Shown here piece by piece: positions 13,870 through 34,777 of a stretch of 64,000 nt of DNA (the first letter of the stretch is position 1; each line of letters starts with the position of its first letter). Location: the NCBI RefSeq assembly GCF_024713945.1, contig NC_134679.1:1679001-1743000 (forward strand), given 5' to 3'. Under the pieces are notes generated by a model, which searched no databases, was not told where the DNA came from, and worked only from the letters and a program-made list of their open reading frames with translations. The position numbers and the translations under genes are program-made. This stretch comes from Dermatophagoides farinae (taxonomy: Eukaryota; Arthropoda; Arachnida; Sarcoptiformes; Pyroglyphidae).

Positions 13870-16800
13870 TTAATAATTGGTTGTTTCTTCTTGCGTCGTG
13901 AACACTTGTCGGGTACCGCCTGGAACCTGGCTTGTGGTCACCCATGAACGATGTTTAGCACGAATGAACGATAAGTTCGATTCAGCTTGATCGGCACGAT
14001 CTTCGGCTGCTTCCAATTCACGTTGGAATCGTCTGACACGTGTCAAATTCTGTTGGCTCATTCCCTCCTAAGTAATTGTATTGTAATTTAAAATGTCAGA
14101 AAAGTAATTTCAATCATATAATATAGATTACCTGTTCTTGCATCTGTCGTTTGTAAACTTTGACCTTTTCATTCAATTTATCAGTCATTTCCTGTAGCAA
14201 TTGAATTTGTTTATGGTCCTCCTCATTTTGCAACAACAATTCCTTGACACGATGATCCTTTTTACGTAACATTTTGTCCGTTTCGGCATGTCGTCGTCGT
14301 TCTTCTTCAACTTCAATTTCAACATCACGAATTCGGCTTTCCAATTTGGCAATGACACGTTTACCACCGGCCAATGCATTGGCTTCGACCTCTTCAATAC
14401 GGACATGCAATGTTCGTACCTCTTGTTCCAATGATTTTTTCACCGTTTCCAATTTAACCAATCGTTCTTGTTCTTCGATCAACAAATCTTTAGTAGATTT
14501 GAGTTCAATTGTAAGTTTCTGTACTCGTTCATCAGAAATCTATTTGTTCGGTTCAATAATGAATTGATTAGTTCCATTTGGATCAAGCAATAGAATATTA
14601 AATTAAATACTTACTCTAAGTTCTTTATGTACTTCATCGTAATCAGCTTGAAGTGCAGAGAATTCTGATTCCAATTTACTTTTAGCCGATGCCAAATTGA
14701 CGTTGATTGTGGTAAGTTCGTTAACACGTACAACAGCTTCTTCATGCAATTGTTCGGCTTGTCGTTTAGCACGATTAGCCTGTTCCAATGCAATACGCAT
14801 CTCTTCCAATTCGGCTTGCAATGCTTGGCATCGTCGTTGTGTAACACCCAATTGATCCACTGCTTGTTGCAATTGACGATGAACTTCATCATAATGTGCT
14901 TGGAGCTCCTACATTTTACAAATGAACATATATTACAAATGTTATTCACCGTGAGAATCTTTGATAAAAAAAACTAACCGTAATTTGAAGAGCTTGTTTT
15001 TTAATAGTCTTTTGCAAATCGATATTAGCCTTATTGGCTGCATCCAATGACAATTCCAATTCGGTAATCTGTGCCTGATATTTTTTCTTCAATCGAGCAA
15101 TTTCGGTCTTAAGTTTAGCCTCAGCTTCGGCCAATCGCATGTTAAGTTGTTCAATTTCAATTTGATATTGTTTGCTATTTGTAAATGTAATTAGAATGGA
15201 AATTATTTAAAATGGAAATTCTCTGCTTACCGCAATGCTTCAATTTCTTCATCTTTTTGTGCCAAACGTTTTTCATAATCATGTCGTACCTGTGCCAATT
15301 CGGCAATCAATCGTTGATTTTTGGCCTCTTCTTGTTTTCTCAATGTTTCTGCTTCTTTATAGGCAGCCGATAATTCATCACGTTCATTCTCTAATCGTTT
15401 GATTTCAATTTCTTGTTCATGGATTCTACGGTGAGCATCGTTCAATTGTGATTTAGCTTCGGCAAGATCGTCTATAGCAAATACATTTCAATCAGTCAAT
15501 TGTATCAATTGAATATTGTTTTTCATTACCTGTAAGTTTCTTGTTTTCACGTGCCAATTGATCACGTTGATCACGTAATTTTTCATATTCATGTTGCAAT
15601 TTCTGTAATTCAGCAATCTTGACTCGAAGTTCTTTCTGTGCTTGTTCCATCAACATGGTAACCTCTTCCAATTTATTCTTCAAATCAAGATTAATCTTTT
15701 CCAATTGAGCAACACGTTTTTCTAATTGTTGTGCATGTGCTGTCGCTTTTTCAAGATCCATAATCAAAACTTCAACTTCGCTTTGAAGTCGAGATTTTTG
15801 TTTCTCCAATGAACTGCATTTATTCAATAAGGCTTCCAATTGTTCTTCGTATTCCGAAATCTTTTGAGCCATTTTACGACTATTTTGGAATGGAAATATT
15901 TGTAAATCATTCATTGAAAACAGATAATTAGATTAATTACCGAAGTTCTTCAACTTCATCGGCATGTGCTTGCAATTCAGCTTCGTATTTGGACTTCCAT
16001 GATGCAGCATCGCCATTGGCTTTGGTCAATTGACGTTCAAGCTCAAGACGAGCCTCGGATTCTTCGTCCAATTGTACTTTCAATGATTCTAATTCCACTT
16101 CCAATGTATGGGCATGATTTTCGAGACTGGCACGTTTCTATTGATTACAAAAATTAAAACATTTTTATCCAATCAAGCATTTATGGAAAAAAAACTTACT
16201 CGTTCCTCTTCTTCCAAACGATGTCGAGTGTCTTCTAATTGTTGGGCAATCTGTGTCTTCAAATGGTTTGCATTGTCCAATTGTAATTTAACTTCGTGAA
16301 CCTCTTTGATCAATTCGGTATTCTCCTGACTTAAACGTTGTTTATGTGATGTCAATTCAATGACCGTACGGTTGATTTCTTCGATTTTGATATTCAATTC
16401 ATGTACGGTGTATTCCAATTTTTCTACATTTTTCAATGCCGTTAATTTTTCCTTATTGGACGTTTCCAATTGAGCTAATAATTCAAAAACTTCAGCCTGA
16501 AATTTTTGCTTCTCTTTATCCGATTTATTTTTCGCTTTTTGCAATTGGTCAAGTTGATCTTGCATTTCCTGGATGGCAGCCTGATGTTTCTGTCGCAAAT
16601 GATGGGCCGTTTCTTCCGATTCAATGTGAACATCTTCCAACAATTTTCTCAATTTTGCCAATTCGGAATCTCTTTTTTTGTTCATTTCGGTCTATGAAAA
16701 ATGGCGAAAAAACCAATTGTCTAAAGTTCTGTCTTTGTGTGTGCGTGTGTGTGTGCATTTATCGTGTATACTTACAACACTTTCGCTAGATCCTTCGGCC

Positions 16801-18423
16801 TCTTCTAAACGTTCACCAAGGCTCATCACTTGGATCTGTAATTCGGCCTTTTCACGTTCGATCTATATTTTGATTCATTTAATTATTAGCAATTTGTGAT
16901 CCATTTTATGAAATTTTATAGAAAAAAAACATTGGCTCATCGTTTGATTCTATAGGACGGATAGGATTGTCTCCTTGATCTAATTTTTTATTTAATTTAA
17001 TCATTCATCGTTTGTTCACTGTTGTTTTCTCCTATTTGAAATTCTTTATGGCAATTTTTTCTCTTACGTTATATTTATGATTGCATTCATTGGAATGAAA
17101 TTCTTGGATTCTTGTTGCTTTTTCTGTGATGTGATGTGTGTGTGTGTGTGTGTATGTTGATGATCTCTAAAAATAGATGGTGTATAAGTGTGGCGGATTA
17201 AGGCGTTGGTATGATTTTTTTTTTGGCTGCCGTTTCGAAGCTAAATATTCGTTTACTGTGTAAACGCCTCGCCTACTTGATTACGTACCCAATATCATTA
17301 TTCTCTCGTTCCATTCGGAAAATTAATATAGCACTGTTCTATTCTTTTTATTTACAAGCAATAATAATTCTAAAACAAGCCTAAAACGGAATCTTGCTGA
17401 TCATACAATAAAATTTTCGACAGTGTCATCAAGTTCATCACCAAAAATATATCATATTTACATATAATTAAAAAAAGGTGAATCATGGCCAATAATAGTG
17501 ATGAATAGAAAAAAAAATAATTCAACTTACACGTTGTCGCATTTCACGTTCGGATTCCAAATCATCGGATAACAATCGGATTTTGTCCTAGAAATCATTT
17601 GAACAAGAAATAAAAAAGACGATAAAGAATTAAGATTGGAAATAATTATCGCTTAGTTGTTAGTAGATATGTGTGTGTGTGTGCGAATTGATAATCAATT
17701 CAAGGTCGATTTACAATATAATGCTTGCTTGTGGTATAAAATTTTTCGCCAGTTTAAATTTGTTGGCTCAATTTCAAAATCAATATAGCCATCAATCTAT
17801 CGATTGATCGATTGATTTTTTTTTCTCTAATCATGTGTTTATTTGTTAAGAAGTAGTAGAACATTAACAACCTTGATCTAGATTTGTTTATGTTCAAATC
17901 TTATGGTCTGTTTCAATTTTTTTTATTTTTTTTTTTATTTTTGAATTGGTGATTCTATGAATGTTCTTGACTTTGAATCGTTGTTTCAGAAGGAAATGGA
18001 AATGGAAACGATTCGATGATTGTTATTCTTCATCTACTATATAGAGAATTACCTATTCTAGCTGGGCGTCATCTTCATCGCGACAACAAAGTATTGCACT
18101 TTCATCATCAAAGTTTAAGATGCTAAAATTGGATTCAGATTTGGCAATTTTAAAATTTGTGAAAACAAAATTAGGTTGATGTAACTAGAATATTGTTTTT
18201 GTCTACTATAAATGTTTGGTATATGTGAAAAAAATTTCGATTCTTTACAAATAAAAAAAATTAAATGGTTGATGATCAAATATGTAAACAAAAAATGTAT
18301 GAACAAATTACATACCTCAAGTCGAGTTAAGGCACCTAAATCGGTACCATATTCAACGGAAATATCACCAGAGGCACCAGCACCACTGGATCGGTACATA
18401 TATTTAGCTGTACGTGCCGACAT
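13870..18423 (-). CDS. Paramyosin (group 11 dust-mite allergen homologue)
   Basis: Eleven coding exons on the minus strand: 18423-18316, 17587-17531, 16862-16776, 16691-16200, 16137-15941, 15879-15530, 15471-15231, 15174-14979, 14908-14615, 14539-14132 and 14067-13870. All joins are GT-AG and in phase. They total 2628 nt, or 875 residues plus stop. The chain has a short non-helical head ([17 protein letters not shown]...), an almost unbroken alpha-helical coiled coil with heptad and 28-residue periodicity, and a non-helical tail ending QEETTNY. Paramyosin forms the core of invertebrate thick filaments under the myosin sheath, and in Dermatophagoides it is the group 11 allergen. Length, head and tail agree with what I recall of Der f 11 / Der p 11. 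An upstream in-frame TTG was rejected as a start in favour of the ATG of MSAR. Exons 8 and 9 (15174-14979 and 14908-14615) have duplicates at 32.5-32.1 kb. Confidence 0.97.
17166..17175. promoter_or_regulatory. MEF2-like site in paramyosin intron 2
   Basis: CTAAAAATAG is a perfect match to the MEF2 consensus YTA(A/T)4TAR. It lies in the 670-nt second intron of a muscle gene, where MEF2 control would be expected. Such matches arise by chance several times per 64 kb at this base composition, and another sits at 38967-38976 with no muscle gene nearby. The evidence is contextual only. Confidence 0.3.
18053..18122 (-). other. Cryptic or poison cassette exon in paramyosin intron 1
   Basis: On the minus strand a 70-nt segment is bounded by a good acceptor (CCAATTTTAG) and a donor (GTAATT). 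Joined after exon 1 (phase 0) it reads CAT CTT AAA CTT TGA, so inclusion would add a stop codon after four residues and shift the frame. It could be a poison exon or a chance pair of splice signals. No protein similarity was seen. Confidence 0.25.
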
Positions 18424-20771
18424 TGTTTTCAAATTGTTTTTTTTCTTTGTTCCGGTTACAGATCAAAACGGCTTCAATTATTTTTCGTTTTTCGGATCAA
18501 AAAAAATTTTTTGAAGAAAAATTCAATTCTTATTTCGATTTCGAAAAAATGAATGATGCAAAACGATGAATGATATTTAACAACAATATAAAAAAAACGA
18601 ACAACGGACAACCAAGAAGATCAAACCAATACACACCAACAATCAAACAACAACTGACACACTAATCGTGATAGATGCAGCCGATTTTCTACCAGAATAT
18701 AAAATGAAAAATCTTTTAAATTCTTTCAGATCAAAGCCAAATGAAATCAACAATAATGGGAGAGAGAGAGAGTGAAAGAGAGAAAAAATATTTCTGATTT
18801 GCTGATGATCAATGCTGCCAGAATTTTTTTTTTTTCGTCCATCATCATCATCATCATCATCATTCCACTGTATTCATTTTCATTTTCTTATGTAGAAACC
18901 TTGATATGATGAATCTATGTAGTAGCATCCTTTCGAATATTCAAAATAAGGAATTTGAATTTTTTTGTTGTTGTTGTTGTTGAAAAAATAGAAAATTTCA
19001 AATTGCTAGCGGGATATTTTTTCTTTTCTTTTCATTTTGTCTGGTTATAATGATTTGTTGATTCTTCTGTCTTTGAACAATTTTTTGTTGTTGTTGATGT
19101 TGATGAAATACATTCTCATCCATAATTACCGAATGTGGCCGTGTAGGTGTGTGTGTGATAGATATGTCGAAAGCCGTGGTGGTGGTTAATACATATGAAT
19201 ACACACATTTCATATGTGATTTGGCACCACCTTAACTTTGTGGTAATATTCCCAAATGATGATGATGATGATGATGATGATAATGATGACAATATATAGA
19301 ATAATTGTTGAATTGAAAAAAAAATTCTCTACATCGGCTTGTTGCTTGCCTGTTGTTGTTGTTGTTGGCCTATATATCGACATTCCTTTTTTAGACATTC
19401 TCAATACACACTACAACATACTAGCAACAACATCATTGACGGAATTCTTGAAATCAACAACAATGAATTGAATTCTATAACACGTCATTATGAAAATGTG
19501 AATGATTTAGAAAAAAAATTGGATTCCTCACAATTTGAATTTAATCTTTTTGGTCTTGATTTAGCATGTGTATATGGGAAATTTTTTATGTAAAGGAATG
19601 TAAATGTTTTCACTGATGACGATGATTATTATATATTCTTTATTTGTTATTTGTTTCACATTCTCTTTCCTAAGAATATTCGGAATATTTTTTTTTTATA
19701 AAATTCATTTCTCCCCAATGCTATGCTTCTATGCTACTATATGTTATCGAAAATGAATATTTTTCTAAAATAAAACCTTCGAAAATAAAAAAAAAACCAT
19801 TTTTCTCTCTCTTTCTCTATTTATTTTTTCGGTTTAAAGTTTGGAATTTTCTTCATCCAAGAATAATGGTGAAAAGAATCCCTTTATTTTTGTGTATGGA
19901 TGAATTTTGTCTAGTTGAGTTCAACACAGTGTAAATGACAAATTTTTTTTTTCTTCTTCTTCTTTCAATCTTGGATGAAATTCTTTTTTTTTCACCGAAA
20001 AAAAAATAAAATAAACGTATGATGATGATGACAAGTAAACGATTGAATGAAAACCTGGTCTTTTTAAGGAAAAAATATTATCACTTTTTTTCTATTAATA
20101 AAAAAAAAAAATTTTTTTTCCTGTGCATCAATTTTTTTTCCCTGTTTGTCAAATCATGCACATAGAGAGTGATGGTAGACATGATGTTGAGACACATTCA
20201 TTCACATTCACACACACGAACACATTGATTGACTTGGTTGACCAAATTGAAATTTTTTTTTTTGTTGAAAAAAAAACTTTTTTTTTCAAACGAAAGATTC
20301 ATTCATTCTATTCTACATAGATTTCTTTTTTTTCCCAAAAATAACGATAACTTGTACAATGCAAACAATTGAAGAGAGAGAGAGAAATTCTCTCGTTCAA
20401 AAATTCTCATTCACCACTACATGAAGAAATAGTTGTTGCATCCTGACTAAAAATGTTTGAATTTTATTTTTCCACTTATTCAATACTGCCACACGTAAAA
20501 AATATTATCATCACCATCACATATATAGAAGAGGGAATGTACAATGAAAGAATAAAATATTCTAGGTTAACAAAGTTGACAAATTCTCCATGGATTTCCA
20601 TTTTTTTTTTAGTTTGTTTGTTTGTTTAATTTGTAAAAGAGAGAAAAAAAATTCATTTTGAATTTATTTATTCAAAATATATTTATACAAACATGGCAAA
20701 TTGAATTCAAATTACATATAACAGAGAACATTACATTTTTTTTTTTTATTGACAAATTTCAAGGTTTCACA
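18424..20771. other. Noncoding: paramyosin 5' flank
   Basis: No coding exon was recognised. It should contain the promoter and any 5' untranslated exon of paramyosin (minus strand, left part) and the 3' flank of NDUFS6 (right end). Open frames here are translations of (ATG)n, (TTG)n and poly-T. Confidence 0.6.
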
Positions 20772-21348
20772 CTAATGATGATGATCAGAATGTTCTTGAT
20801 AAAAACGTAGACCACAATAGCCACATGTATGATTTCCTGGTTGATCTAAATTGATAAATACTTTTGGATGTCCTAATGGTCCACCACCACCATCACAAAC
20901 TACTTTTCGTCCTTTTACAGCTGTTGGTGGTATTTCCGCAATCAGATCACGAGCAAAACGTGTATTCACCTTATGGTATAAATTGGAGAATCAGAAATTA
21001 TTCATTATGTCAAGCACATGAATATGTGAATACCTTTTTCGATTTACCACCAATAAAACGTGACAGACGGTAGTCATTTTGTTCAAATTTCTATTTTAGA
21101 TTAAAAATTGATCAGAATTGACAATGAGGAAATACAATTATGATACAAACCTGTCCGGTATGTGTTTCAACATCGACAAATTCATCGATTTTCTGTATAT
21201 CAGCCTTTGATAATGGTTGAGTTTTGTTGGCTGAATGTTTATCCAATTGATGATCAGATGAAAGTGATCGAATAGGATTGATTTGTGTCATCAATCGTTG
21301 CCATATTTGTGGTTTTGAACAAAATTTATTCATAATTTGATTGGCCAT
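20772..21348 (-). CDS. NDUFS6: NADH dehydrogenase (complex I) iron-sulfur protein 6, mitochondrial
   Basis: Three coding exons: 21348-21151, 21090-21034 and 20969-20772, in phase, giving 150 residues. The C-terminal zf-CHCC domain is clear: [20 protein letters not shown], then [20 protein letters not shown] and [14 protein letters not shown], with the C...H...C-x2-C zinc ligands intact. NDUFS6 is a nuclear-encoded accessory subunit of the N-module of complex I in the mitochondrial matrix and is needed for late assembly. The first roughly 45 residues lack acidic runs and contain Arg and Lys, as expected of a mitochondrial presequence. The start is the ATG of MANQIMNKF. An acceptor-like TTTGAAACAG just upstream (about 21364-21373) suggests a 5' UTR intron. 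The gene is head-to-head with bL36m. Confidence 0.95.
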
Positions 21349-21644
21349 TTCTGGAATATGAATCTGTTTCAAACATAAATACAATTTATTTATCAACACA
21401 AATCACAACAACAAGGTGAATTTAACAGAAAAAAATAACCTAGCGACTATTTCAACTCATAGCTGCTACATTTGGTTTTAATGGTTTAAAATTTTGTCAC
21501 ATGTTTTTTTTTCTGAAATTTTTCAATTTTGATTTTTTTTTGTTTAGAATTTAAATTACTCTGTAAGTTGATAATAATTAATTGATTAAAAAATGATTTA
21601 TTTATGATTTCAAATTAACGATTTTTTAAAACCAGAAAACAATA
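21349..21644. promoter_or_regulatory. Shared divergent promoter region of NDUFS6 and bL36m
   Basis: Only 296 bases separate the two start codons, which point away from each other. No TATA box is obvious. Part of this interval is probably 5' UTR, possibly with a small NDUFS6 leader intron. A bidirectional promoter for two mitochondrial proteins is an inference from geometry. Confidence 0.55.
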
Positions 21645-22007
21645 ATGCTTCGAAATTGTTTGAACATCATGACAAACTTGTGGCGAATTGCTCAACGAAC
21701 AAATATTCAAACAACATTAATTAGACCGGAATTTCAATTACCGTTATCAATGGATAAATTTCCTATGCTTCAACAGCAACAAATACGAACATTTAAAGAT
21801 AAAGATGTGCTAAAACTTCGTTGTTCAAAATGTTATTTCAAAAAAATCGATGATCGTTGGTGGGTTCTTTGTAATGAACATCCACGACATAAACAACGAC
21901 AAAAATTGTCACGAATACAGCAACAAGATGAAATGATTGTCACACACATTACCCGTACCGGATCATATAAAAAGAAACATTATCAATATCTTTATCATGA
22001 TATTTGA
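21645..22007 (+). CDS. mRpL36: Large ribosomal subunit protein bL36m, mitochondrial
   Basis: Single-exon frame of 120 residues. Residues about 60-95 form the bL36 zinc-ribbon: [20 protein letters not shown] followed by [11 protein letters not shown], giving the C-x2-C...C-x4-H ligand set. The long basic N-terminal part with few acidic residues is consistent with a mitochondrial targeting sequence. The bacterial homologue is only about 38 residues, so most of the length is the organellar extension plus a C-terminal tail. The ATG at 21645 is preceded by an in-frame-stop-rich AT stretch. The protein sits in the large mitoribosomal subunit. Confidence 0.93.
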
Positions 22008-22129
22008 TTGATTCGGGATTTGATTTCATTTTGTACAATTTGTCTAATTTCGTTATTTTTTTTTTTTGAAATAGCTGGAAAAACCCCCATAATTATTGTA
22101 TTTTCATTTTCATTGTTCATGAAAACAAA

Positions 22130-22135
22130 AATAAA
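22130..22135 (+). terminator. AATAAA poly(A) signal for bL36m
   Basis: AATAAA inside AAAAATAAATAAAT, about 120 bases downstream of the stop codon on the same strand. Confidence 0.5.
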
Positions 22136-22260
22136 TAAATTACCTGTTAGAAATACGTCCTAATAACAGATTATTTTGTGATCTTCCTCATTATTGCCTG
22201 TATATATGGCCAACAAAATGTAGGGGTGTCATTTCTTTCGTATTTTCAATAATCGATTTG

Positions 22261-22384
22261 TTTCAAAAAAAAAATTCAATCATTTAAATGAAATGAAATA
22301 TCAATATATAAATGTTTAAATGTTTCAAAAAAAAAATTCAATCATTTAAATGAAATGAAATATCAATATATAAATGTTTAAATG
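22261..22384. repeat. Tandem duplication of a 62-bp AT-rich unit
   Basis: Two copies, 22261-22322 and 22323-22384, appear identical over the full unit (each begins TTTCAAAAAAAAAATTC and ends GTTTAAATG). The identity suggests a recent duplication. Confidence 0.9.
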
Positions 22385-23861
22385 CCTCAAGCCAAAATGA
22401 TGATGGCAACAAGTTGTCATCCATAACACATGAAATGATTAATGGACAGCCATCATTATTATCATTGATATACAGGTGTATATTTCTTTCAACAATAACA
22501 ACAACAACAACAAGAAAAATATATTTTTAGAAATGAAATGAAAATGGTGTTGGTGACAATGATGTTCAACTTTGACTTTGAATGGCAATCGAAAACAAAA
22601 AGAAATGAAAAAAAAAGAAAGAAAGAAAGAAAAAAAAGGACCTTGTATACGTATCAACCATATATATCAAACATCCAATAAAATCCAAATCACAACATGA
22701 ACAGCATCAAGATCAGCCATTAATCATTTTCCCTCTTTGATGATGATGATGATGATGATGAACTTGTTATAGAATCGAATGATTTGGCGTTATTTTCATT
22801 TCATTTTTTTATTATTATTTTTTTTTCATTTCATTTTTCATTAAACAAAGCCTGTAGGGTATGAAAATTGAATATTTTTTTTTGTTTTCAATTTTTAAAT
22901 TTTTAATAATCTGTCCGTTTATCATTTTGTTTGCAATTCATGAATTTAATCATTTCATTTTTCAATAACCAAATTCTTAAATATTATTTATGAATGATCA
23001 ATGTGGATTTTGTTTTTGTAAAGAAAAAAAAATGACACGAAATCCAGGTAAATGTATGTTATTGTATCCCCCCCAAAAAAAAAACAATTAGAGGAAATAA
23101 TTGAAACATTGAACTTCACGTGATATCCTTTGTGTGTATGTGTGTGTGTGAATGTAGCTGTAAATCAGATTCAATGAACATCGATCGAATGATCATTATA
23201 ATATGATGATGATGATCATCATTATCATGAGAGTGTAAATTATTTTGTGTCACATACATTATATTTGTGTGACAGAATAACCTTGAATGAAAATATATTT
23301 AGATTGAATGTATTGATTGATAGATTGATTAATGAAGAATTCATTATGACGGAATTTAATTGAAGAAATTGATTAGAATTTTTTTTTTTTTGGAATTATA
23401 ATCTTGAATAATCCCTTGTATTTCCTTAAATCGAATGTTTTTGTTTTGTTGTTGAAAAAAATCGATTCCAGAATTCGAATATTCTCTAATATCTAGAGTA
23501 TAGATAAAAGATTTTGATTGAATTTGGTACTTTGAAATCGATCTGATTTTTTTCCGATCATTTAAAAATAATTGAATCCTAAATTAATCACTATAGATTT
23601 GTTTTGCTGTACGTGTGTGTGTGTGTATCGATGATGTTGTTTGAAAAATTCTGTGAAAAAGTTCCAAGAATAAAAACTATTAGAATGGAATTAAAAAAAA
23701 AAATTTCCATTAATTATTTTTTTTGTTATCAAAATTGTTTATGAAAATCTCCAAAATCATCACAAGACAATATATAACGTGTTTTTTTTCCCATTTTTTT
23801 CCATTTTATTGGATTCATTCCAATCGATTAGTCATCTTGTGTGTGTGTTAAAATAAACAAC

Positions 23862-23892
<31 letters not shown>

Positions 23893-24233
23893 TTTTTTCC
23901 GGGAAAACACGGATATGATGATAAACAAATGGAAACAAACAAACAAAAAAAAAATAAAATGATAAGATAAGATTTGACCTACTAGAGATCATCATCTAAT
24001 AAATTGGTTATTTCCTAATATGAAAATATTCTAATGGATATGCTGATTTAATCGATTGAATTATTATTCATGTACAGGTTTTTTTCCATTGAAAAACACA
24101 ACACTTTTATCATTGGAATAATAATTATAAATTTTTTTTCTGGTTAGTAACAACAACGGTGTATAGATTGAATTCATGATAATGAAAATCGAATGATTCC
24201 AAATTGATAATTCTCATGATTAATTAATTTGTT

Positions 24234-24259
24234 TGTGTGTGTGTGTGTGTGTGTGTGTG
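24234..24259. repeat. (TG)13 microsatellite
   Basis: Uninterrupted TG run in noncoding DNA. Confidence 0.95.
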
Positions 24260-26953
24260 ACTGTGATATAATCTTGATTATATATACACATGCAACCCGA
24301 AAACATTTCACTGCCAAACATCATAACAAAAATCAAGTGTTTTTCCAATGTCATACGATTTTTAATCATGATGATGATGAAGATGATGATTATCATCCAA
24401 TCTTAAAGGATTATTGTCAGATTGTCAGATAAAAAATTGAAATTTGAATTTTGTTGTTTGTTTCTTATTTAGTTTTGGTTTTTTTTTGTTTTAGTATTGC
24501 GAATATCTTATGTTTTCAATAATGTTGTTTTCTTTTCTTTTCTTTTCTTTTTTTTCTTAGGAATTGATGACATCACTAATCAACAGCACTATTATTGATA
24601 ATTATTATTCGACGTCATTCATTTTTATCATAAAAATCGATGATGATGATGTTGTTGTTGTTGTATTGATAATCGTTAGTAATTCACACTTTTGTTGTTG
24701 GTAATAATCCAAAGTTTTTAGTTCATGTACATGTATTTGCCTAAATTCAATTTGTATACAAAATCAAAGTCAAAATCAGTATGTACTTTACGAATATTTT
24801 GCATTCAAATTTGATTCAAACGTACATTCTTCGTTAGTTACTTTGAAGCAATCTTCTACTGTACTAATCCAGAACGAAAACAAAACATCAAGAACATTAC
24901 AAGCACACAAATTTGTTGATTACAGACAAATTGATAAATTGGGCACAAGTGTACCTTGATTAAATACGGAATAACACATCATGAATGTTACAAAGAAAAT
25001 CATCGATTGATCAATAATTTATAGCAAACAATATATCAGTTGTGATCAGAGAATTTCCAGTGGAAAAAAATGGTTGAATACCAATGGTTAATCATAGATG
25101 TAGAATTAAAGATCAATCAAAAAAAAAAAATCACTGGCATTAAAAATCATTAATCAATGATTCATATAATCATGGCGTAATAATAATTTGAAACTTTGAA
25201 AAAGAAAATTTGATTTCAGTAACAAATAAAAATTGATTGGATTTTACTTCGATCTCATTCATTATACTGTTTTTAAATATTTAATAAAAATGGTTCAAAT
25301 AAGATAGCAAAAAAAACTGTCAACAAAATTGTCAAATGATAAATACAGACACACAGACAGATCATTGATGATAAAGATAATAATGTTGAAGAATTTTTTC
25401 CATTTATATCTCACTACTGTATATGTCTATCATATTGAATGATCTCATTCATTAATAATTTGGTCCAAACTTATTATATTCTTCTTATGTTTGCTATATA
25501 TATATATGTTCAAATTCAAGGCTGAATATTGATCACAATTTCATTACATCATGTCCACACATTTTGATCCAAATATTTAATTTTTTTTGTTTGTTTGTTT
25601 GTTTGTTCACACACAGTTTCCAATTCGATTCAGGCATCAATAGCCAAAAATTGGAATTGGATATTTGTTGTTTAATCATTTCCAGTTTGGGTTTTTTTTG
25701 TTTCATTTTCAATCATTGTTGCTGTTTTTATTTTGTTCACGCTATTCGTGTCTGGTCAGTTTCAATTTCGTATTTTTTTTTTGTTTCGGTTCAAATTGTA
25801 CTTTTTTTTCTCTCCAAAAATCATCATCACATTATTATAATGATTATGGGTATAAGTAAGTCAGATTCCGCATCATAATCATTCAAGTCGAATGAGAAAA
25901 TAAAAAACAAAACAAACAAACAAAACTCAAAATAGATAATAACCAAGTTTAATTTCAAAGAATTTTGAAGTAACTAAAACTAATTGACGTTTTTTTTGAT
26001 GATGATGATGATGATGATCCATGATCATCATTGGGTCAACACTATGATTAGAGATTCTTATTGATTCAAAGAATAATTTTTTTTTAGCTTCTTACGATAA
26101 TTCTTTGAGTATAGTGAAAAATAAAACATTTAGTAACATTTAATCTTTATAATCATAGCCATCATAATATCTTCCATTGCCACTGCCATAATAATGATTC
26201 ATTAATCGTTAATCGATTCTATCATCCATTTGGGAATTCTCCATTTAATATGACCATGATGGGTACACACACACACATAGAATCTATTGCAGTTATAACC
26301 ATAGAATAGAAATTGAAAAGTAACTATCAAATTCCTATTTCCAATAAAGCATATGATTGGATCGTCATATCATAGAAAAAAAACGAACCAAAGTCAGAAT
26401 AATCAATGTTTTTTTTCAATTTCATTGCATATGAATTTATGTTTAGCATATGATGATGATCACTGGATGATTGGAAATTGCATCAGCCAGTTTAGCTGCA
26501 TAAATTTTTGTTTTGTTTTTGAATTCATAATAAAATGTTGATGATTGATTGATTGATAATCATATCATCAAGACATTTATTTAGTAATCATCAACAACAA
26601 CAATATATATCTGTTTGTTTTACAGACAACACTCTTTGCATCCGGATTGAGGACAAAAAAAAAATTTCCATTCATCGAAATGGCAATAGAAAATTTTTTA
26701 AAAATCATAAAATTAGTAATTTGATTCAAAATGGATACGTAAATATCCTGTGTTTTTTTTGGTGCTTGCTAATAATCCTGTATTCATCATCATTCATTTC
26801 TTGTGCTAATCATAGGTTGTTATTGTAAAATTGCTCAAAGATCAAAGGCAACGTGGTTGGTTGGTTGATTGGTAGGTGCATGTAAAAGGGAGAAGAACGT
26901 TCATTCGAAAAATGTGATTGCTATCTTGAACTGCAAAAAAAAAAAATTATCAT

Positions 26954-27017
26954 CCACCGTCATCATCATCATCATCATAATCATTGCCGATAATGATGAT
27001 GATGATGATGACGGTGG
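26954..27017. repeat. 25-bp perfect inverted repeat with 14-nt loop
   Basis: The left arm 26954-26978 begins CCACCGTCATCATC. The right arm 26993-27017 ends GATGATGACGGTGG and is its exact reverse complement. The spacer is AATCATTGCCGATA. The arms combine a (CAT)n core with a non-repetitive CCACCGT cap, so the pairing is not only a microsatellite effect. RNA from either strand would form a stable hairpin. Confidence 0.9.
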
Positions 27018-29050
27018 CAGTGTGTATGGTTGTTTCACGTTTCGTTTTTTAATCGTCCAAAATATATACATAAAAGTATGAAATGAATATGATGGCTAGA
27101 CGACGACGACGACGATATACGGCTGATGCAATCAATTCATTTAGGTTGTATCATCATCATCATTCTATGGTTGTAGTAATAACTGATTGATTGCAACTAA
27201 TCAAAAAAAAATCAATTGGAGAATTTCGATATGAACCGAACAAGCAAACAGTGATTACACTTGTTTTTGTATACATACAAAATGAATAAGATAGAAAAAA
27301 AAGACGGTCAACAGAAAAAAAAACATATTGCATCCATTATATATATATTGGTTTATTGGCCATTGATTGTGACATTGAATCACAAAAAAATTGCAATACA
27401 TTCAACTTTTAAAGTTGCACATTGTGGAAATTTTTTTTTTTTTTTTGTTTTCATTTTATAGCCATATATAATTCTTTATTATTAATTTTTTTCTCCATTT
27501 TAAATCAACTATCGATTAGCTATATAGCCTCTGGTTGACAGAAGAAACAAAGTCGTTGACATTGAAAAAAAAAATTGATTCCAATTGAATTTTTTTTTTT
27601 TTTTTTTTTGGAAATTATAATAGAACCTTGTCACATTGATCAGGTGATCTGGTGGAGGGTTCGTTGACTTTACAATACAAAAAATGGATTTTTGGTGGTC
27701 ATCAGAGAAAAAAAAACATTCGGTCAAAATATAATAATAATAATAATAAAATAAGACAATAAATGGAAATCGAAAATTTCATAAAAGTCAAATCAAATGC
27801 AATTTTTTTTTTTGGTTGTAATTGTCAATAAAAATTATGTTTTTGTCCTGGTTTGTTTTTTTTTGTTCTTCTTTTTTTCTTTTGATTATTATTATTAATT
27901 CGGGTCATTCGGGATTTTTTTTTCAATATATGGCCGCCGATAATGACATTGATGATAACTGCAGCTGCTACCGCTGTTGTTGTTGTTGTTGTTTTTGTCA
28001 TTCAATTGATAATAAAAATTAAAATACAGTCATAAAAGCAATGAATGAATGAATGAATGGAATGAATGTCCCAAGAGATGGTTGAATGTTTTGTTTTCAA
28101 TAAACATTTCTACGAAAACAAAATCATATTGAATGGAATTCAAATGGAATTCCAGTCATATTTGTTTTTTTTTTGTCCATTGGAAAAACAAATGAAAATA
28201 AAAAAATAAATTTTCACTAAAAAGATAAAAGATGATGGAGAATAAATTTCCATGAATGAACAATACATTTTGAAAGGATTTCTTTCTATACTTTTTTTTT
28301 TTTTTTTTGTTTATCTCTAGGAATTCAGGCCAAAATAAAACAAAATTTTGAATAGAAAAGCCAACCATGCATAGAAAATGGTAATGGCGGTCATTCTTTT
28401 CAATTATGAAATGAAAAGTCAAAAATTTTTTGAAAGAAGCATAGTATCAACATCATCACTTATAAATGATAAACTATATGAATCATGCAGTGATCATTTG
28501 ATTTTGTGTAAAAAAAGGTCAATTTAACCGCGAAAAGTTCATCAACAAATTTTGTTTACTGAAAAAAGAAAAATTTCATTTTTCTTTTTTTTTTCATTCG
28601 AGGAAACATTCCATTTTTTAGATATCCAGATCCATCATTTATCATCATTTAGATGGAATCAAAATCATCAGATGACCATAATTCCGGCGGAATCTCCATA
28701 TCGAACAAACAAACACACACACACACACAAAAAAAACACATATTGAATATCAAAAACAACAACAACCTCAGGCTATTCGAGAACCTGATTGTTTGATAAG
28801 ATTTCCGTCTAGGAAAAGTGTTGGATGTTCAATAGAATTTTATATTTTAATATTTAAAATTATTCTGATGCAATTACTAGATATTGTACATGAAATATTC
28901 ACGTGAAAAAAACGTACCATATTACAATAATTTACCCCAATATAAATGATAAATTTTCTCTTTTATCTCTCTCTCTCTCTATGCATTGACAATTTTTGCA
29001 TTTTATCGACGTCATTCATTACAAATGTCATATACAACACACATATTCAT

Positions 29051-29072
29051 ATCAGATCAGATCAGATCAGAT
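29051..29072. repeat. (ATCAG)4 minisatellite-like tract
   Basis: Four tandem ATCAG units followed by a partial one, in noncoding DNA near CT-rich tracts. Confidence 0.85.
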
Positions 29073-29363
29073 TTAATATTATAATTCTCTCATTTTCTCT
29101 CTCTCTCTCTCTTTTTCTATCCATGTAGTGGTGTTTTCATCATGAAACAAAGTGTAGTTTTAGTTAGTTTAAATTAAAATTGAATATATCAAAAACAGAC
29201 AAAATAGTTCAAGAACAAGAGAGACTCTCTACTACAAGTGTGTGTGTGTGTGTGTCGGATGTATACAGCCCTCTTTTATGAAATGAAATGAACACACTAG
29301 TAGTTGACTCCTCATTTTATCTCATTGTCAATGGTGGCAGCGACCGCAACAAGGTTTTCCGTT

Positions 29364-29377
29364 GATTGGTTATAAAA
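29364..29377 (+). promoter_or_regulatory. TATA-like core promoter candidate
   Basis: GATTGG is followed directly by TTATAAAAAC and then by sequence of higher complexity (CTCGCGTAGATAG) than the surrounding repeats. About 270 bases downstream an ATG (29650) opens a 65-residue frame. This is weak evidence for a plus-strand transcription start. No downstream gene was recognised that would clearly use it, apart from the distant cytochrome b5 gene. Confidence 0.25.
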
Positions 29378-29649
29378 ACTCGCGTAGATAGTAAATTTTG
29401 AATCATTCAAGAATCATCAAGCAATCAAAGATTTCAGAAATTTTTGAAACCTTTTGCTTTTGTGCCTGTCTGTCTGCCTGTCTGCCTGTGTGTGTGTGTG
29501 CGTTTGGATGTGTGCAGCTGTTGTCCATTTCAATTTAGAATCGTATATCCGGAATCGCTGTTGTTGTTGTTGTTTTTTTTTAAATCGCTGATTATATTAC
29601 GCTGAATTTGCTGAATCAATATTCCAATATTGGAAAGAAGAAAATTTTT

Positions 29650-29847
29650 ATGCATCATCAAATAGTAAAAAGAAGAAAAATATCCAATTTTTCGATGTAT
29701 TTATCGATATCATCATTATCATTATTATCAACCAATCATATTACTATTTCAACAAAACGAACATCATTGACGTTAATACAGCAATTAATAATATTGTTAA
29801 TATTAATAACTATAACTATAATAATAATAACTACTGATCAAACATAA
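29650..29847 (+). CDS. Doubtful small ORF with a hydrophobic C-terminus
   Basis: This frame runs 65 codons from ATG to TAA. It has a basic start (MHHQIVKRRKISN), a Ser-rich middle and a strongly hydrophobic end (IQQLIILLILITITIIIITT). It lies 270 bases downstream of the TATA-like motif at 29371. The hydrophobic end derives from TA- and AAT-type repeats, which often encode Ile and Leu runs by chance here. No similarity was recognised. It may be a signal-anchor micro-protein or simply noise. Confidence 0.12.
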   Translation: MHHQIVKRRKISNFSMYLSISSLSLLSTNHITISTKRTSLTLIQQLIILLILITITIIIITTDQT

Positions 29848-31239
29848 TCGTTTGGTTTTCGTTTTCGTTTTTTTTTCATTCGCACATATATAATTATTAT
29901 ATAACAATATATTGTCCACAACAACGGGAAAAAAAAGAAGATATTCAAGAAGATAACATTCTCTTACAAAATTACGGAAATTCGTTCCTTGACTATTGTG
30001 GCTATCAAAAAAAATTGTAAGTCCTCTTCTTGTATTATGTATCTTTTATTATTGAAGAAAATTTTCTTAGCCAAAGAAAAAAAAATCCATATTGTGTGTT
30101 TGTGATAATTGTTGAGTTGAATTATTCTGAATTCTGAATTCTGTCTGTCTGATGCTGATGATGATATATTACCTAATGGCCTATATTTTTTTTTTTTTTG
30201 GCAAAATAAACAAGTAGCCTGAAAGCAATTTTCGATCCAAAATAAATCCTCATATATTAGTTAGAATGTTAAATGTCGCGACAATGGCGACGACAACAAC
30301 GACGACGTCGACGACGTGACATTCGACATGTTATCAATATCGATTATATTGATGTCATTAACATGTATATGTAATGTTGTATGTTTAAAAATTGGTTTAT
30401 AACAATAATTTAAACATCGACCGGAAATCATAGATTTAATGTATGTTTAACGATAGTTGTTTGTTTGTTTGTTTGTGTTTTTTTCTGTTTATCATCAATA
30501 TTATTTTCACGTTTTCAAGTACATTTTTATTGCCATTTATCGACCAAATATCGATCCATATTCATTTATATATGGATGAATATAAATAACGAATGAAATC
30601 GATTCTTTATTCAAATTTCATTCAAAATGATTTAATTCAAATAGGTATTGGTTTTTTTCCAACATTGGAAAAAAAAGAGAAAAGTGAACAAAATTCAATC
30701 GTCAATTTTTTTTTGTTTGTTTCTGTTCGATGTAGATGTTGATAGATGTTGGTGTGTTGGATCAATGATAATCAATCACATCACATCATCATCATCATCA
30801 TTATATTAATTCAAAAATACCAAATTGAAAAAGCCTCGACAACAGTAGATGTGTTTTTTTTCAAAATGAACAGAAAAAATTGTTGTATATCATATCATTT
30901 TTTTTTCTATTTGTTCACTGTTATAATTAGTGAACAAATAGAAATGAAAATGGCGTGATTTTTCTTCTGTTGTGTTCTGTAGTCCACATACACAATGACG
31001 ACCATAAAACAAAAATTGAAAATAAAAAAATTTTTTCAACATATATTTGGTTTATTATTTGTCAATTATTTCTAGTATCAAAGAGCGAGATGCACGCGTT
31101 TTTTCAGTCTATTCAATATTTGGTATTTTTCTCCGTTCATGGTTTGATGATCGATGCAAAATCCAACAAAACAATTTGATATATTTCTATTTATTTCATC
31201 AATCTTTTTCAAAAAATCTTTTTTTTTTTCGTTGATCAA

Positions 31240-31269
31240 CAATATCATTGATCACCATCAATGATATTG
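31240..31269. repeat. 13-bp perfect inverted repeat with 4-nt loop
   Basis: Arms CAATATCATTGAT (31240-31252) and ATCAATGATATTG (31257-31269) flank CACC. No gene is adjacent. Confidence 0.85.
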
Positions 31270-32108
31270 CTTACAAATCATCATCATGATCATCATTATT
31301 GATTTTGATATCTAATTGCCCTTGCAATTGAACAACAACAACAACAACAACGACAACGACGACGACAACGAATCATTGGGATTATTCAACAAACAAACAT
31401 ATTCAACAACATGTCATTGATTGTGGTTAGATTTTCTCAGTGAAAACGACAAATAATAATATAAACATGACATTTTCATCTCATTTTCATTCAATTCTCT
31501 CTCTTTTTCTTTTGCTAGATAAACACATTGATGATGAAAACTTTTATATATGTGTTTTGGGTGTTAGGTGCAATTTAATCAAATTTCACAAATCATAAAC
31601 ACTATTCATGGTTAGGGTGGAGGTTTCTTTTTTTTCTGATGGTGGTGGTGGTGGTGGTGCTGGTGGTTGAAATATAATTTTCAAATTAAAATAAATAAAT
31701 AAGGATATATTAGATTTTTGTTTTTTTTTTCGTCAAATGAAAGTAAAATTAGTTAAAGATGTCAATTTCTAAATGTGGCAGTTGACAAGAATTTATTATA
31801 TATTCGTATATTCCTGTTGTTCCAGTTTAAATTATTGGTTTTTTTTCTGTATTGTTCACGATTCTTTTGCTATTCATGTATGCATGTTATTCATTTCATT
31901 TCATTTTATTCCATCAATTGAAATCTTGGATCACGTTTTACATTATAATGTTCAGGCATTTGCATAGTTGATGTTGATTTACTCAATTCTTTTGCAAACG
32001 ATGTATAGATATGTGACTAGTATATATGTGGGGTATGAAAAAGAAAAAAAAATCGTTACTGATCAATTTGAATTTGCATATATATATCGAATAATAATAA
32101 TAATAAAC

Positions 32109-32237
32109 CTTTTCCAGATTATTTTTCATCTCTTCCAATTCATGATGAAGATTTAGACAACGTTTCTGTGATTGTCCCAATTGTTCATTAACATCTTGAT
32201 ATTGTCGTTGTGATGCTTGCAATTCAAGCGATATATC
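32109..32237 (-). CDS. Paramyosin-like coiled-coil exon B' (duplicate of paramyosin exon 9, 5' part)
   Basis: Minus-strand exon of 129 nt (43 codons, phase 0 at both ends) with an acceptor ending TATATAG and a donor GTTTAT. Its product, including ELQASQRQYQDVNEQLGQ and KRCLNLHHELEEMKNNLEK, aligns without gaps to the first 43 residues of paramyosin exon 9 (14908-14615), for example QLGVTQRRC and [12 protein letters not shown]. The paramyosin exon continues another 55 codons, and no counterpart to that part was found nearby. The donor is not strong, so the 3' boundary is less certain than the acceptor. The frame is a clear heptad coiled coil. Confidence 0.8.
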
Positions 32238-32320
32238 CTATATAAAAATTTTAAAATGAAAATCCTATGATGATCAATCGGTTTTTCTTTTTTATTTTTC
32301 TTTTCTTTTTTTGCACTTAC

Positions 32321-32516
32321 CGAAACTTGTTTCGCTTGTTTACGTAATTGTTTTTGCAAATCATTCAACTGACGATCTTGATCTTCAATAGTAATCATTA
32401 GATCGGTTACTTCACGATCCGTTTTACCCTTCAACACTGCCTGTTCTTGTTTGATTTTATTAGCCGATTCATTTAGATCCAAACGTACTAGTTCAACTTC
32501 TTTCAATAATTCATTG
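32321..32516 (-). CDS. Paramyosin-like coiled-coil exon A' (duplicate of paramyosin exon 8)
   Basis: Minus-strand exon of exactly 196 nt, with acceptor CGAAAACAG and donor GTAAGT. It enters with one base completing a split codon and leaves at phase 0. Paramyosin exon 8 (15174-14979) has the same length, the same phases and even the same split-codon base C. The 65 encoded residues align without gaps: LMITIEDQDRQLNDLQKQLR corresponds to [20 protein letters not shown]. This is an ancient exon duplicate, since residues outside heptad core positions have diverged. It lies 92 nt-scale upstream of exon B' in the same order as exons 8 and 9. Confidence 0.88.
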
Positions 32517-34147
32517 CTGTTTTCGAGAAAGAAAGAAAGAAAGAAAGTGAAAACAAATCAACTTAGTGTATTTTGAGCTATATTTGGGTTTTCTTCATAT
32601 AGAATTGTTATTTGGTCAAAAAAAAGCATCAACAAACAACGACGACAACAACAACAACAACAACAACAAAAACAACAACAAAATCATAATCTCTTCATTG
32701 GAAAGACATCGCAATAATAATAATAATAACTGGTAATGAACTCATTTTCATTGGAAAAAAACAAGAGAGATATAAAAATTTCCATGAAGAATGAATTTGG
32801 ATTTTAAGTTTTGGGCTGAATTTTGTTAGCATAGAGATTAAAATTCCATATATGAAGATTATGTTTTGAATTTGATTTTTTTTTCATTGATAATGATGTC
32901 AATTTTTTTTTCTTCAGAATCCAGAAAAAAAACAAAATTTTTGACTCAATTATCAATAATCATAATTCATGGATGATTTTTTTTTTTTTTTTGAAAAATC
33001 ATAAATGAAATTTGACTTTTTGCCAAGTTTTTTTTGGGGGGGAATCACAAAATATTTCGACTCAAATTCTGGCCTAGAAATAACGAATGAGTATAATTGT
33101 TTTTTTTCTCATTTTTGACAGAATTGATGATGAAAAAAAATGATTGCAATGACAGCAATGAATGATAGAGAGAGTGAAAAAAGATCTAAGAAAAATTACA
33201 TAACACATAAATAAAATGAGTAGAGAAAACATACTGCCGATTGATAGTACCGTTACTAATACAGAATGACTGATTCTGTTGCTAAAGAATTTATTTTTTT
33301 TTTTTGCTATTCTAAAATTTCATTAAATTTTCATGTTGTTAGAAATAGAGAAAAAAAATCAACTAACAAACTATTCTATATTCTCCGTCTTCATTCATTG
33401 ATGATGTTAAAAACAACAGTCGACCTCGATGATGATGATGATGATGCGAAAAAATGAAATAAACATTACCATCATCATCATATTCTTCGTTGTCGTTTTA
33501 TTTTTGGAATCACATTTCCGAGCAAAACAAATATGAAGAAGTGGAGAAATTTTTTTTTTCAAAAGAATTATTCATCTTAGAATTCTTGGCTAAATTATTG
33601 AATTTTTCTGGTTTTTTTTCGTTTTAATTTTATTCAGTTAGTTTCATAGCAATAATATTTTTTTTTATCTGCTGTCATCAATAGTAGTTGTATCGGTTTC
33701 GTTTTTTTTCTGTCGTTTCATTTGGTCCAATCTTGAATGGTTTATAATCATCATCATCTTATAGAAACACACACACACACACATAGAGAAAAATTGATTT
33801 ATATGAGACCAGAGAGAGAGAGATAGAGAAAATAGTGTGACAGTTTAATTGAGCACGAGAATTTCATATTTTTTGAAAATAATATTTGTATGTGACAAGA
33901 ATTTGCGTTTCAATTTGTAAATTGTATCTGTTTTTTTTTTGGATCTGAATTATAGAATGATTTGGTTGATTAATCAATAGCTTAGCTTTCATGTTATCAC
34001 TTAATTCGTAATCGTTGATGAACAGGAAATTTGTTGAAAAATTCATAATTTTTTTGTTGTAATTGTTGTTGTTGTCGTCGTGTAAGAAAGCGGAAGCTAT
34101 TTTCTGTTTTGAAATTCAAAAATCAACAGAAAAAAAATTTGAAAATT
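32517..34147. other. Noncoding: probable intron between head exon and exon A'
   Basis: No coding exon was recognised. It contains simple repeats including (CAA)n at about 32645-32690, (GAAA)n, poly-T tracts and a short (CA)n. It is read as an intron of the 32.1-34.8 kb minus-strand transcription unit. Confidence 0.5.
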
Positions 34148-34777
34148 TTAAACAAGCATCATTGCTTTGAATAGCTGTGCAGGATAAAGATCATTTTGAA
34201 CTTTTCGCAATGAATTTTTATACCATCGTTCCATCCAGAATGAATCACGTGGTTTACCAACATCATCGTTTAATGTTGACATTTCATATGATGATTGTCG
34301 TGTATAATAAGCTGATTCCGGTCGTCTTGACATTGATCGTCGTGATGCGGATCGTCGTAGACGGCTATCTTCTAGCTCTGAATTCAAACGATCCAATTGA
34401 CGTGATGAATAATATGAATCGAATGATGGCGATGATGCCAATGCAGCTGAATGTGCACGTCGTTCACTACCTTCAAGATAACTATTAACACGTTCTGTTG
34501 ACAATGTTCGTGTTAATTCATTCGATAATGAATCATTTGCTGCCTGTGTACGTAAATTTCTTGCCACTGATTCACCCATCAATTGACTATCGGCAAAAGT
34601 TGATAATCCTAAATCAGGTCGATCACGACGAAAACTAGTACGAGCCAATGCTTCATTATATTTACGTTCAATTTCATCAACTGCATCCGAATACAATGAA
34701 TTTCCATAACGATAATTATCGTTATAGATACTTGTATATGGTCGTTTCCAAACTTTTGGAGCAAATTTTGGTGCCAT
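34148..34777 (-). CDS. Tyr/Ser/Arg-rich head exon; candidate N-terminus of short (mini-)paramyosin
   Basis: A 209-codon open frame from ATG (34777) to TAA (34148). The N-terminus reads MAPKFAPKVWKRPYTSIYND, followed by NYRYGNSLYS and a charged segment DEIERKYNEALART. Then come Ser/Arg/Tyr-rich stretches (RRSASRRSMSRRPESAYYTR) with many potential phosphorylation sites. There is no signal peptide or membrane segment. Codon usage looks coding throughout. It lies 1.6 kb upstream of, and on the same strand as, the paramyosin-like exons A' and B'. An internal donor (CGATG|GTATAA, exon end 34224) leaves exactly the phase that A' requires. Insects make a short paramyosin with a non-helical unique head from a separate promoter, and I infer this is the mite counterpart. 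Alternatively it is an independent single-exon protein. The function is not proven from sequence. Confidence 0.65.
   Translation of the reverse strand: MAPKFAPKVWKRPYTSIYNDNYRYGNSLYSDAVDEIERKYNEALARTSFRRDRPDLGLSTFADSQLMGESVARNLRTQAANDSLSNELTRTLSTERVNSYLEGSERRAHSAALASSPSFDSYYSSRQLDRLNSELEDSRLRRSASRRSMSRRPESAYYTRQSSYEMSTLNDDVGKPRDSFWMERWYKNSLRKVQNDLYPAQLFKAMMLV

Follow-up and report, generated by a model that had tools for sequence, protein, structure and literature searches.

Known short paramyosins and the mite locus

Insect miniparamyosin carries a private, non-paramyosin N-terminal head and has its 3' exons in common with paramyosin, with which the Drosophila protein shares 363 C-terminal residues. 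Flightin and myofilin, two other accessory proteins of the insect thick filament, are not known to contain a paramyosin coil. In published descriptions, Drosophila paramyosin and miniparamyosin are assigned to one gene (PMC11509062), the paramyosin gene is credited with an internal promoter (PMC4671713), and miniparamyosin P35416, the short form of Drosophila Prm, is listed at 74 kDa (PMC7391215). A Bombus miniparamyosin, A0A6P5HKR2, is mentioned in PMC9820631. Mite paramyosin is cited as allergen group 11, e.g., Pso o 11 (PMC6806590), and a report on tarantula ESTs mentions two paramyosin isoforms that differ from the case treated here because they are 71-76% identical to each other (PMC2674065). 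Among the titles and abstract openings covered by a literature search, none described a stand-alone gene of this kind in a mite.

The region examined, referred to here as the window, is the whole stretch of 64 kb (C3:1679001-1743000) analysed from a mite genome of 62.4 Mb with 22 contigs. It contains a paramyosin gene (Table 1) whose full product matches Pfam Myosin_tail_1 (E 2e-70). Only introns 1 and 2 of this gene are long, the intron preceding exon 8 measuring 56 nt, and exons 9, 10 and 11 are all entered in phase 0. A second, short paramyosin-like unit with copies of exon 8 and part of exon 9 and with a private head had been proposed from a sequence-only reading of the window, and the present analysis supports its existence 13.5 kb upstream of the paramyosin gene. 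A gene that we take to be NDUFS6-like and a mitochondrial bL36-like (bL36m) gene both sit between the two. An Rfam search of the window returned no matches. Elsewhere in it, two minus-strand ORFs in different frames (10946-12493 and 12327-13013, overlapping at 12327-12493) have the appearance of parts of what is presumably one TruD/PUS7-like pseudouridine synthase, possibly with a short intron or a frameshift.

Table 1. Features of the paramyosin gene, the predicted short gene and the genes between them, in window positions
Feature	Position	Strand	Description
Paramyosin gene	18423-13870	-	11 exons, 875 residues, uninterrupted frame, ten GT-AG introns
Paramyosin exon 8	15174-14979	-	196 nt, entry phase 2, exit phase 0, split-codon base C
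Paramyosin exon 9	14908-14615	-	98 codons
NDUFS6-like gene (presumed)	20772-21400	-	zf-CHCC Pfam match, 20775-20978 alone tested; 5' limit approximate
Mitochondrial bL36-like (bL36m) gene	21630-22007	+	Pfam Ribosomal_L36 match
Candidate poly(A) signal AATAAA of the short gene	31797-31792	-	109 nt past the C' stop; weak evidence alone in AT-rich sequence
Exon 4 (C'), predicted terminal	32016-31906	-	111 nt, phase 0, 36 codons + TAA; SHIYTSFAKELSKSTSTMQMPEHYNVKRDPRFQLME
Exon 3 (B')	32237-32109	-	129 nt; paralogous to codons 1-43 of paramyosin exon 9
Exon 2 (A')	32516-32321	-	196 nt, entry phase 2, exit phase 0; paralogue of paramyosin exon 8
Extension of the head frame, open up to TAA	34148-34223	-	WYKNSLRKVQNDLYPAQLFKAMMLV; intron, or end of an unspliced 209-residue isoform
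Exon 1 (head)	34777-34224	-	554 nt, 184 codons + 2 nt; starts MAPKFAPKVWKRPY
Candidate core promoter TATATAG...TCAGT	34831-34859	-	ends 54 nt upstream of the ATG

In the predicted gene model, the head and exons A', B' and C' add up to 990 nt with the stop (554+196+129+111) and form a closed frame of 329 residues, all four exons being open, in phase and coding by score in DNA of 31% G+C. Like insect miniparamyosin, this model joins a private head to a short paramyosin coil, and the copied coil starts with exon 8 of paramyosin, at 364 residues before the C-terminus, near the Drosophila junction (363 residues). Unlike it, the mite unit lies outside the paramyosin gene and has its own copied coil exons together with its own predicted 3' exon, and its product has 329 residues against the 74 kDa given for P35416 (PMC7391215). 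Shared 3' exons and C-terminus appear to be lacking in the unit, given its own predicted exon C', as do a promoter and head inside the paramyosin gene, and for these two reasons it is not filed as an insect miniparamyosin. A scan of paramyosin introns 1 and 2 for a head-like ORF found none, the best candidate scoring 7.6 bits. With paramyosin itself the unit shares the coil of residues 512-619, with equal intron positions and phases at both borders of A', but it is without the other seven eighths of that protein, has its own head and tail, and ends B' where paramyosin exon 9 has no intron.

The copied coil and its parent

The sequence-only reading had given A' the length, phases and split-codon base (C) of paramyosin exon 8 and had aligned B' gap-free to the first 43 codons of exon 9. 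Both descriptions were borne out, with 21 of 65 codons of A' identical in an ungapped comparison and 17 of 43 in B'; taken together, A'B' agrees with paramyosin residues 512-619 at 38 of 108 positions (35%), without a gap across the exon junction. When A'B' was slid along the whole of paramyosin, this register scored 170, the runner-up among 768 registers reaching 69. In 5000 heptad-preserving shuffles, the true score was attained in any register by none for A'B', by none for A' and by eight for B'. A tblastn search of the window with paramyosin gave 42.4 bits for A' and 35.0 bits for B' (E 7e-11 for the pair). Because of the register scan, the shuffles and the tblastn result, coiled-coil composition alone is insufficient to account for the match.

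Searched against the genome (15 candidates), A'B' was reported at three places only, namely A', B' and paramyosin exon 8, and there is therefore no third copy. That exons 9-11 of paramyosin have further copies close to the unit was rejected, the best of the matches listed for residues beyond 619 at 22-34 kb, apart from B', having an E of 2.4. An unspliced B' reading through was likewise ruled out, at a coding score of -25 bits.

The heptad pattern of the parent is nearly kept in A'B', the core hydrophobic pattern (a/d) amounting to 0.56 and 0.47 versus 0.50 and 0.47 in paramyosin. The 28-residue charge periodicity is weaker (0.77 versus 1.35), and the information for filament packing would therefore be retained only in part. 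At the rise of about 0.15 nm per residue of a coiled coil, the A'B' segment would measure about 16 nm, close to a single 14.5-nm myosin repeat.

A Pfam search with the 329-residue protein listed 19 families at E<=10, all short of their cut-offs and without Myosin_tail_1; the four PDB matches at E<=10 include no paramyosin or miniparamyosin chain. The two best of these PDB matches are myosin rods (E 0.0004), and for this reason the myosin genes of the genome were looked up (nine matches in 14 candidates, two being paramyosin itself). In two genes taken for muscle-type myosins, L027 and L028, the homologue of A'B' is located 262 residues into open frames of 618 and 622 residues. Over the 108 columns, A'B' has 38 identities to paramyosin, 23 and 21 to these two myosins and 19 to a third, L026, the last figure being that of the best register, since the homologous segment is placed there without confidence. 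Columns that A'B' shares with one of the two only number 18 for paramyosin versus 3 for the nearer myosin, and 24 versus 7 when the other muscle-type myosin is used. The margin is small over the 93 columns comparable with a stretch of Drosophila myosin (34 identities to paramyosin, 29 to myosin).

It is the intron positions that decide for paramyosin as the parent. The borders of A' fall at the codon and in the phase of paramyosin introns 7 and 8, places at which the L027 and L028 myosins have no introns, so that A'B' carries intron positions and phases of the paramyosin type and not of the myosin type. An origin from a myosin heavy chain was rejected on the identity counts and on these introns; judging from sequence, paramyosin is closer kin to A'B' than the myosins of this genome are, and is its parent. 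Paramyosin and the nearer myosin agree in this segment at 47 of 108 positions (44%), above the 35% between A'B' and paramyosin, and the copy is therefore old or fast-evolving.

L027 and L028 (both on G000:C6) give this genome two muscle-type myosin heavy chain genes, which are clearly diverged, their identity to paramyosin 512-619 being 47/108 versus 33/108. L026 (G000:C6:31320-33962, plus strand) is a myosin rod with an uninterrupted frame of 883 residues, which resembles paramyosin less than those two do and is perhaps a non-muscle myosin II.

Predicted terminal exon, head and splice signals

The sequence-only reading had found no downstream coiled-coil exons belonging to the unit, and the lack of private 3' exons that this implies is very probably wrong, a terminal exon, C', being predicted 92 nt after B'. 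The 92-nt gap is intron-like sequence, and C' starts after CATATATACTAG. On a hexamer coding score for which 43 long ORFs in 200 kb of this contig served as training set, C' reaches 26.6 bits, above all 3221 open, overlapping 108-nt stretches presumed to be noncoding (maximum 24.9). It also leads the 63 open phase-0 candidates that follow an AG and have 20 codons or more on the minus strand between 22100 and 32108, the runner-up scoring 1.3 bits. A genome search with C' returned one match, itself, with no second copy reported. An internal-exon scan without phase limit gave a proline-repeat stretch of low complexity downstream of C' (31659-31590, minus strand), which scores 22.7 bits as coding, probably as a repeat effect. 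The hexamer score can therefore be raised by repeats; C' itself is not a repeat.

The head exon proposed by the sequence-only reading is coding and private to the unit, and its 3' limit leaves some latitude. Its ORF opens with an in-frame TAA directly upstream and scores 186 bits over 183 hexamers, which is clearly coding. Among the phase-2 GTs listed below 34297, namely 34281 (AAAT/GTCAAC), 34224 (GATG/GTATAA) and one past the stop, the likeliest donor appears to be 34224, that at 34281, 57 nt earlier, being also possible. Past the donor at 34224 the frame stays open for 25 codons, with an LLR of 12.2 over 75 nt, a value reached by the highest 1.3% of 6157 open, overlapping noncoding stretches; this suggests intron retention or an isoform of 209 residues.

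The sequence PEHYNVKRDPRFQLME lies in the head or the tail of the predicted protein. No relatives of either end emerged from the searches made. A genome search with the head gave one match, itself, with no second copy reported, and relatives sought by pattern were confirmed in none of 30 stretches in viral_contigs and none of 65 in genome_contigs; paramyosin exons 8-11 (346 residues), searched in viral_contigs, were confirmed in none of 20. Head and tail had no Pfam match above cut-off and no PDB match of significant E-value beyond the coil. AlphaFold, given the 209-residue head frame as a single sequence, produced a model too poor for a fold search (mean pLDDT 59.5, pTM 0.19). Upstream of the head, the candidate core promoter is weak evidence, the same pattern occurring at one other place in the window (the B'-C' intron), and the 2.2 kb there contain a single MEF2-type match, which does not exceed expectation (42 in 64 kb).

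Splice signals were scored on the ten paramyosin introns, whose leave-one-out scores range from 5.4 to 10.7 for donors and from -1.0 to 5.5 for acceptors. On this scale the A' donor (10.7) and the B' acceptor (8.2) are strong and the acceptors of A' (0.0) and C' (4.2) have values inside the acceptor range of paramyosin; the head donor (ATG/GTATAA, -1.5) and the B' donor (AAG/GTTTAT, 0.5) are both below all ten paramyosin donors. The comparison relied on is stricter and less favourable, comprising 16 introns inferred locally. Just one of these is reached by the head donor and just one by the B' donor, none by the acceptors of A' and C', 11 by the A' donor and six by the B' acceptor. Two of the three donors of the four-exon model are weak. 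Wider calibrations (79 and 293 introns), under which the head and B' donors looked average, had no splice consensus and were judged to consist mostly of false introns, and their percentiles were discarded; of the 293-intron calibration, use was made solely of its candidate initial exons. In the 1.7-kb intron between head and A', no other internal exon candidate exceeds 12 bits.

Competing readings and proposed role

The reading that we consider probable is that of an independent four-exon gene on the minus strand, derived from a partial duplication of paramyosin and encoding a short accessory protein of the thick filament. The sequence-only reading had instead spliced B' to paramyosin exon 10, giving 494 residues. 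The arithmetic is right (184+1+65+43+136+65), and such a miniparamyosin, sharing the paramyosin 3' exons from exon 10 (or 9), would agree with the phase 0 in which B' exits and exons 9, 10 and 11 are entered, with the weakness of the B' donor towards C' and with the internal promoter reported for Drosophila paramyosin (PMC4671713). The sharing itself is unsupported, however, since a terminal exon, C', is predicted within the unit itself, and its stop and AATAAA remove the main reason for joining the unit to exon 10. A private 3' exon is among the results that the sequence-only reading, with transcripts in mind, had listed as refuting its model. The splice would, moreover, have to pass the C' signals, the presumed NDUFS6-like gene (same strand), the bL36m gene (other strand), and the start and exons 1-9 of paramyosin. 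Long-range splicing from the short unit into paramyosin thus appears unlikely, and we regard this particular product as very unlikely. A direct splice from the head to paramyosin exon 8 would give an insect-type miniparamyosin of 549 residues, with A'B'C' as an alternative 3' end. Exon 8 takes phase 2 exactly as A' does, and exons 8-11 hold 364 whole paramyosin codons, near the 363 residues shared in Drosophila; nevertheless, such a splice would span about 19 kb, across other genes and beyond the C' poly(A) signal, and is given hardly any credence.

The weak head donor and the coding-like extension past 34224, within the top 1.3% of open noncoding stretches, would also fit two separate units, i.e., a single-exon head gene of 209 residues ending at 34148 and a transcript carrying A'B'C' behind another first exon. 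We hold this to be unlikely, although less so than any other alternative considered. The A' open frame has no ATG before the coil and would require a phase-2 donor upstream. Of the initial-exon candidates in the intron, the best eight either encode 2-14 residues or have a negative coding score (their donor scores coming from a poor training set), and the absence of internal candidates over 12 bits noted above applies here as well. That A'B'C' is a decaying duplicate with no product is scarcely probable: an identity to the parent of just 35% and the weak splice sites could be expected from a pseudogene, but not a kept heptad pattern, nor four open, in-phase, coding-scoring exons in DNA of 31% G+C, where stops are frequent.

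The preferred four-exon gene would have arisen when exon 8 and the initial portion of exon 9 of paramyosin were copied to a site upstream of that gene, the copies becoming joined to a private first and last exon. We infer that it would be transcribed from its own promoter, with the head spliced to A' and B' spliced to C'. Its product would consist of a 184-residue head of its own, a two-stranded coil of 108 residues (corresponding to paramyosin 512-619) and a non-coil tail of 36 residues, also its own. Most likely, the copied coil would pack among the paramyosin or myosin rods of the thick filament like its parent segment, leaving head and tail to bind or space something on the filament, and the protein would act as a short accessory or as a modifier of length or stiffness, much like insect miniparamyosin, perhaps. 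Its build, a short parallel coil flanked by a long head and a short tail, best suits an accessory position in the thick filament or on its surface. Flightin and myofilin are small like the predicted product, a likeness that is a functional guess only; the Pfam matches listed for the 329-residue protein include no family of flightin/myofilin type.

A more tentative and, in our view, doubtful proposal is that the unit is a miniparamyosin that left its host gene. Head and promoter would now be free-standing, with their own copy of exon 8, where the insect head joins, the coil would have been cut to approximately one 14.5-nm repeat, and a new C-terminus would have been gained.

If expressed, the short gene would provide the thick filament with a further component, in a group in which paramyosin is a named allergen, and RNA or peptide matches to the exon 8/9 region of paramyosin could stem from this second gene. 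If the four-exon reading is true, a short paramyosin would here be made by gene duplication and a private 3' end, instead of an internal promoter and shared exons, and the origin of miniparamyosin would become testable through the presence of the head exon in other chelicerates.
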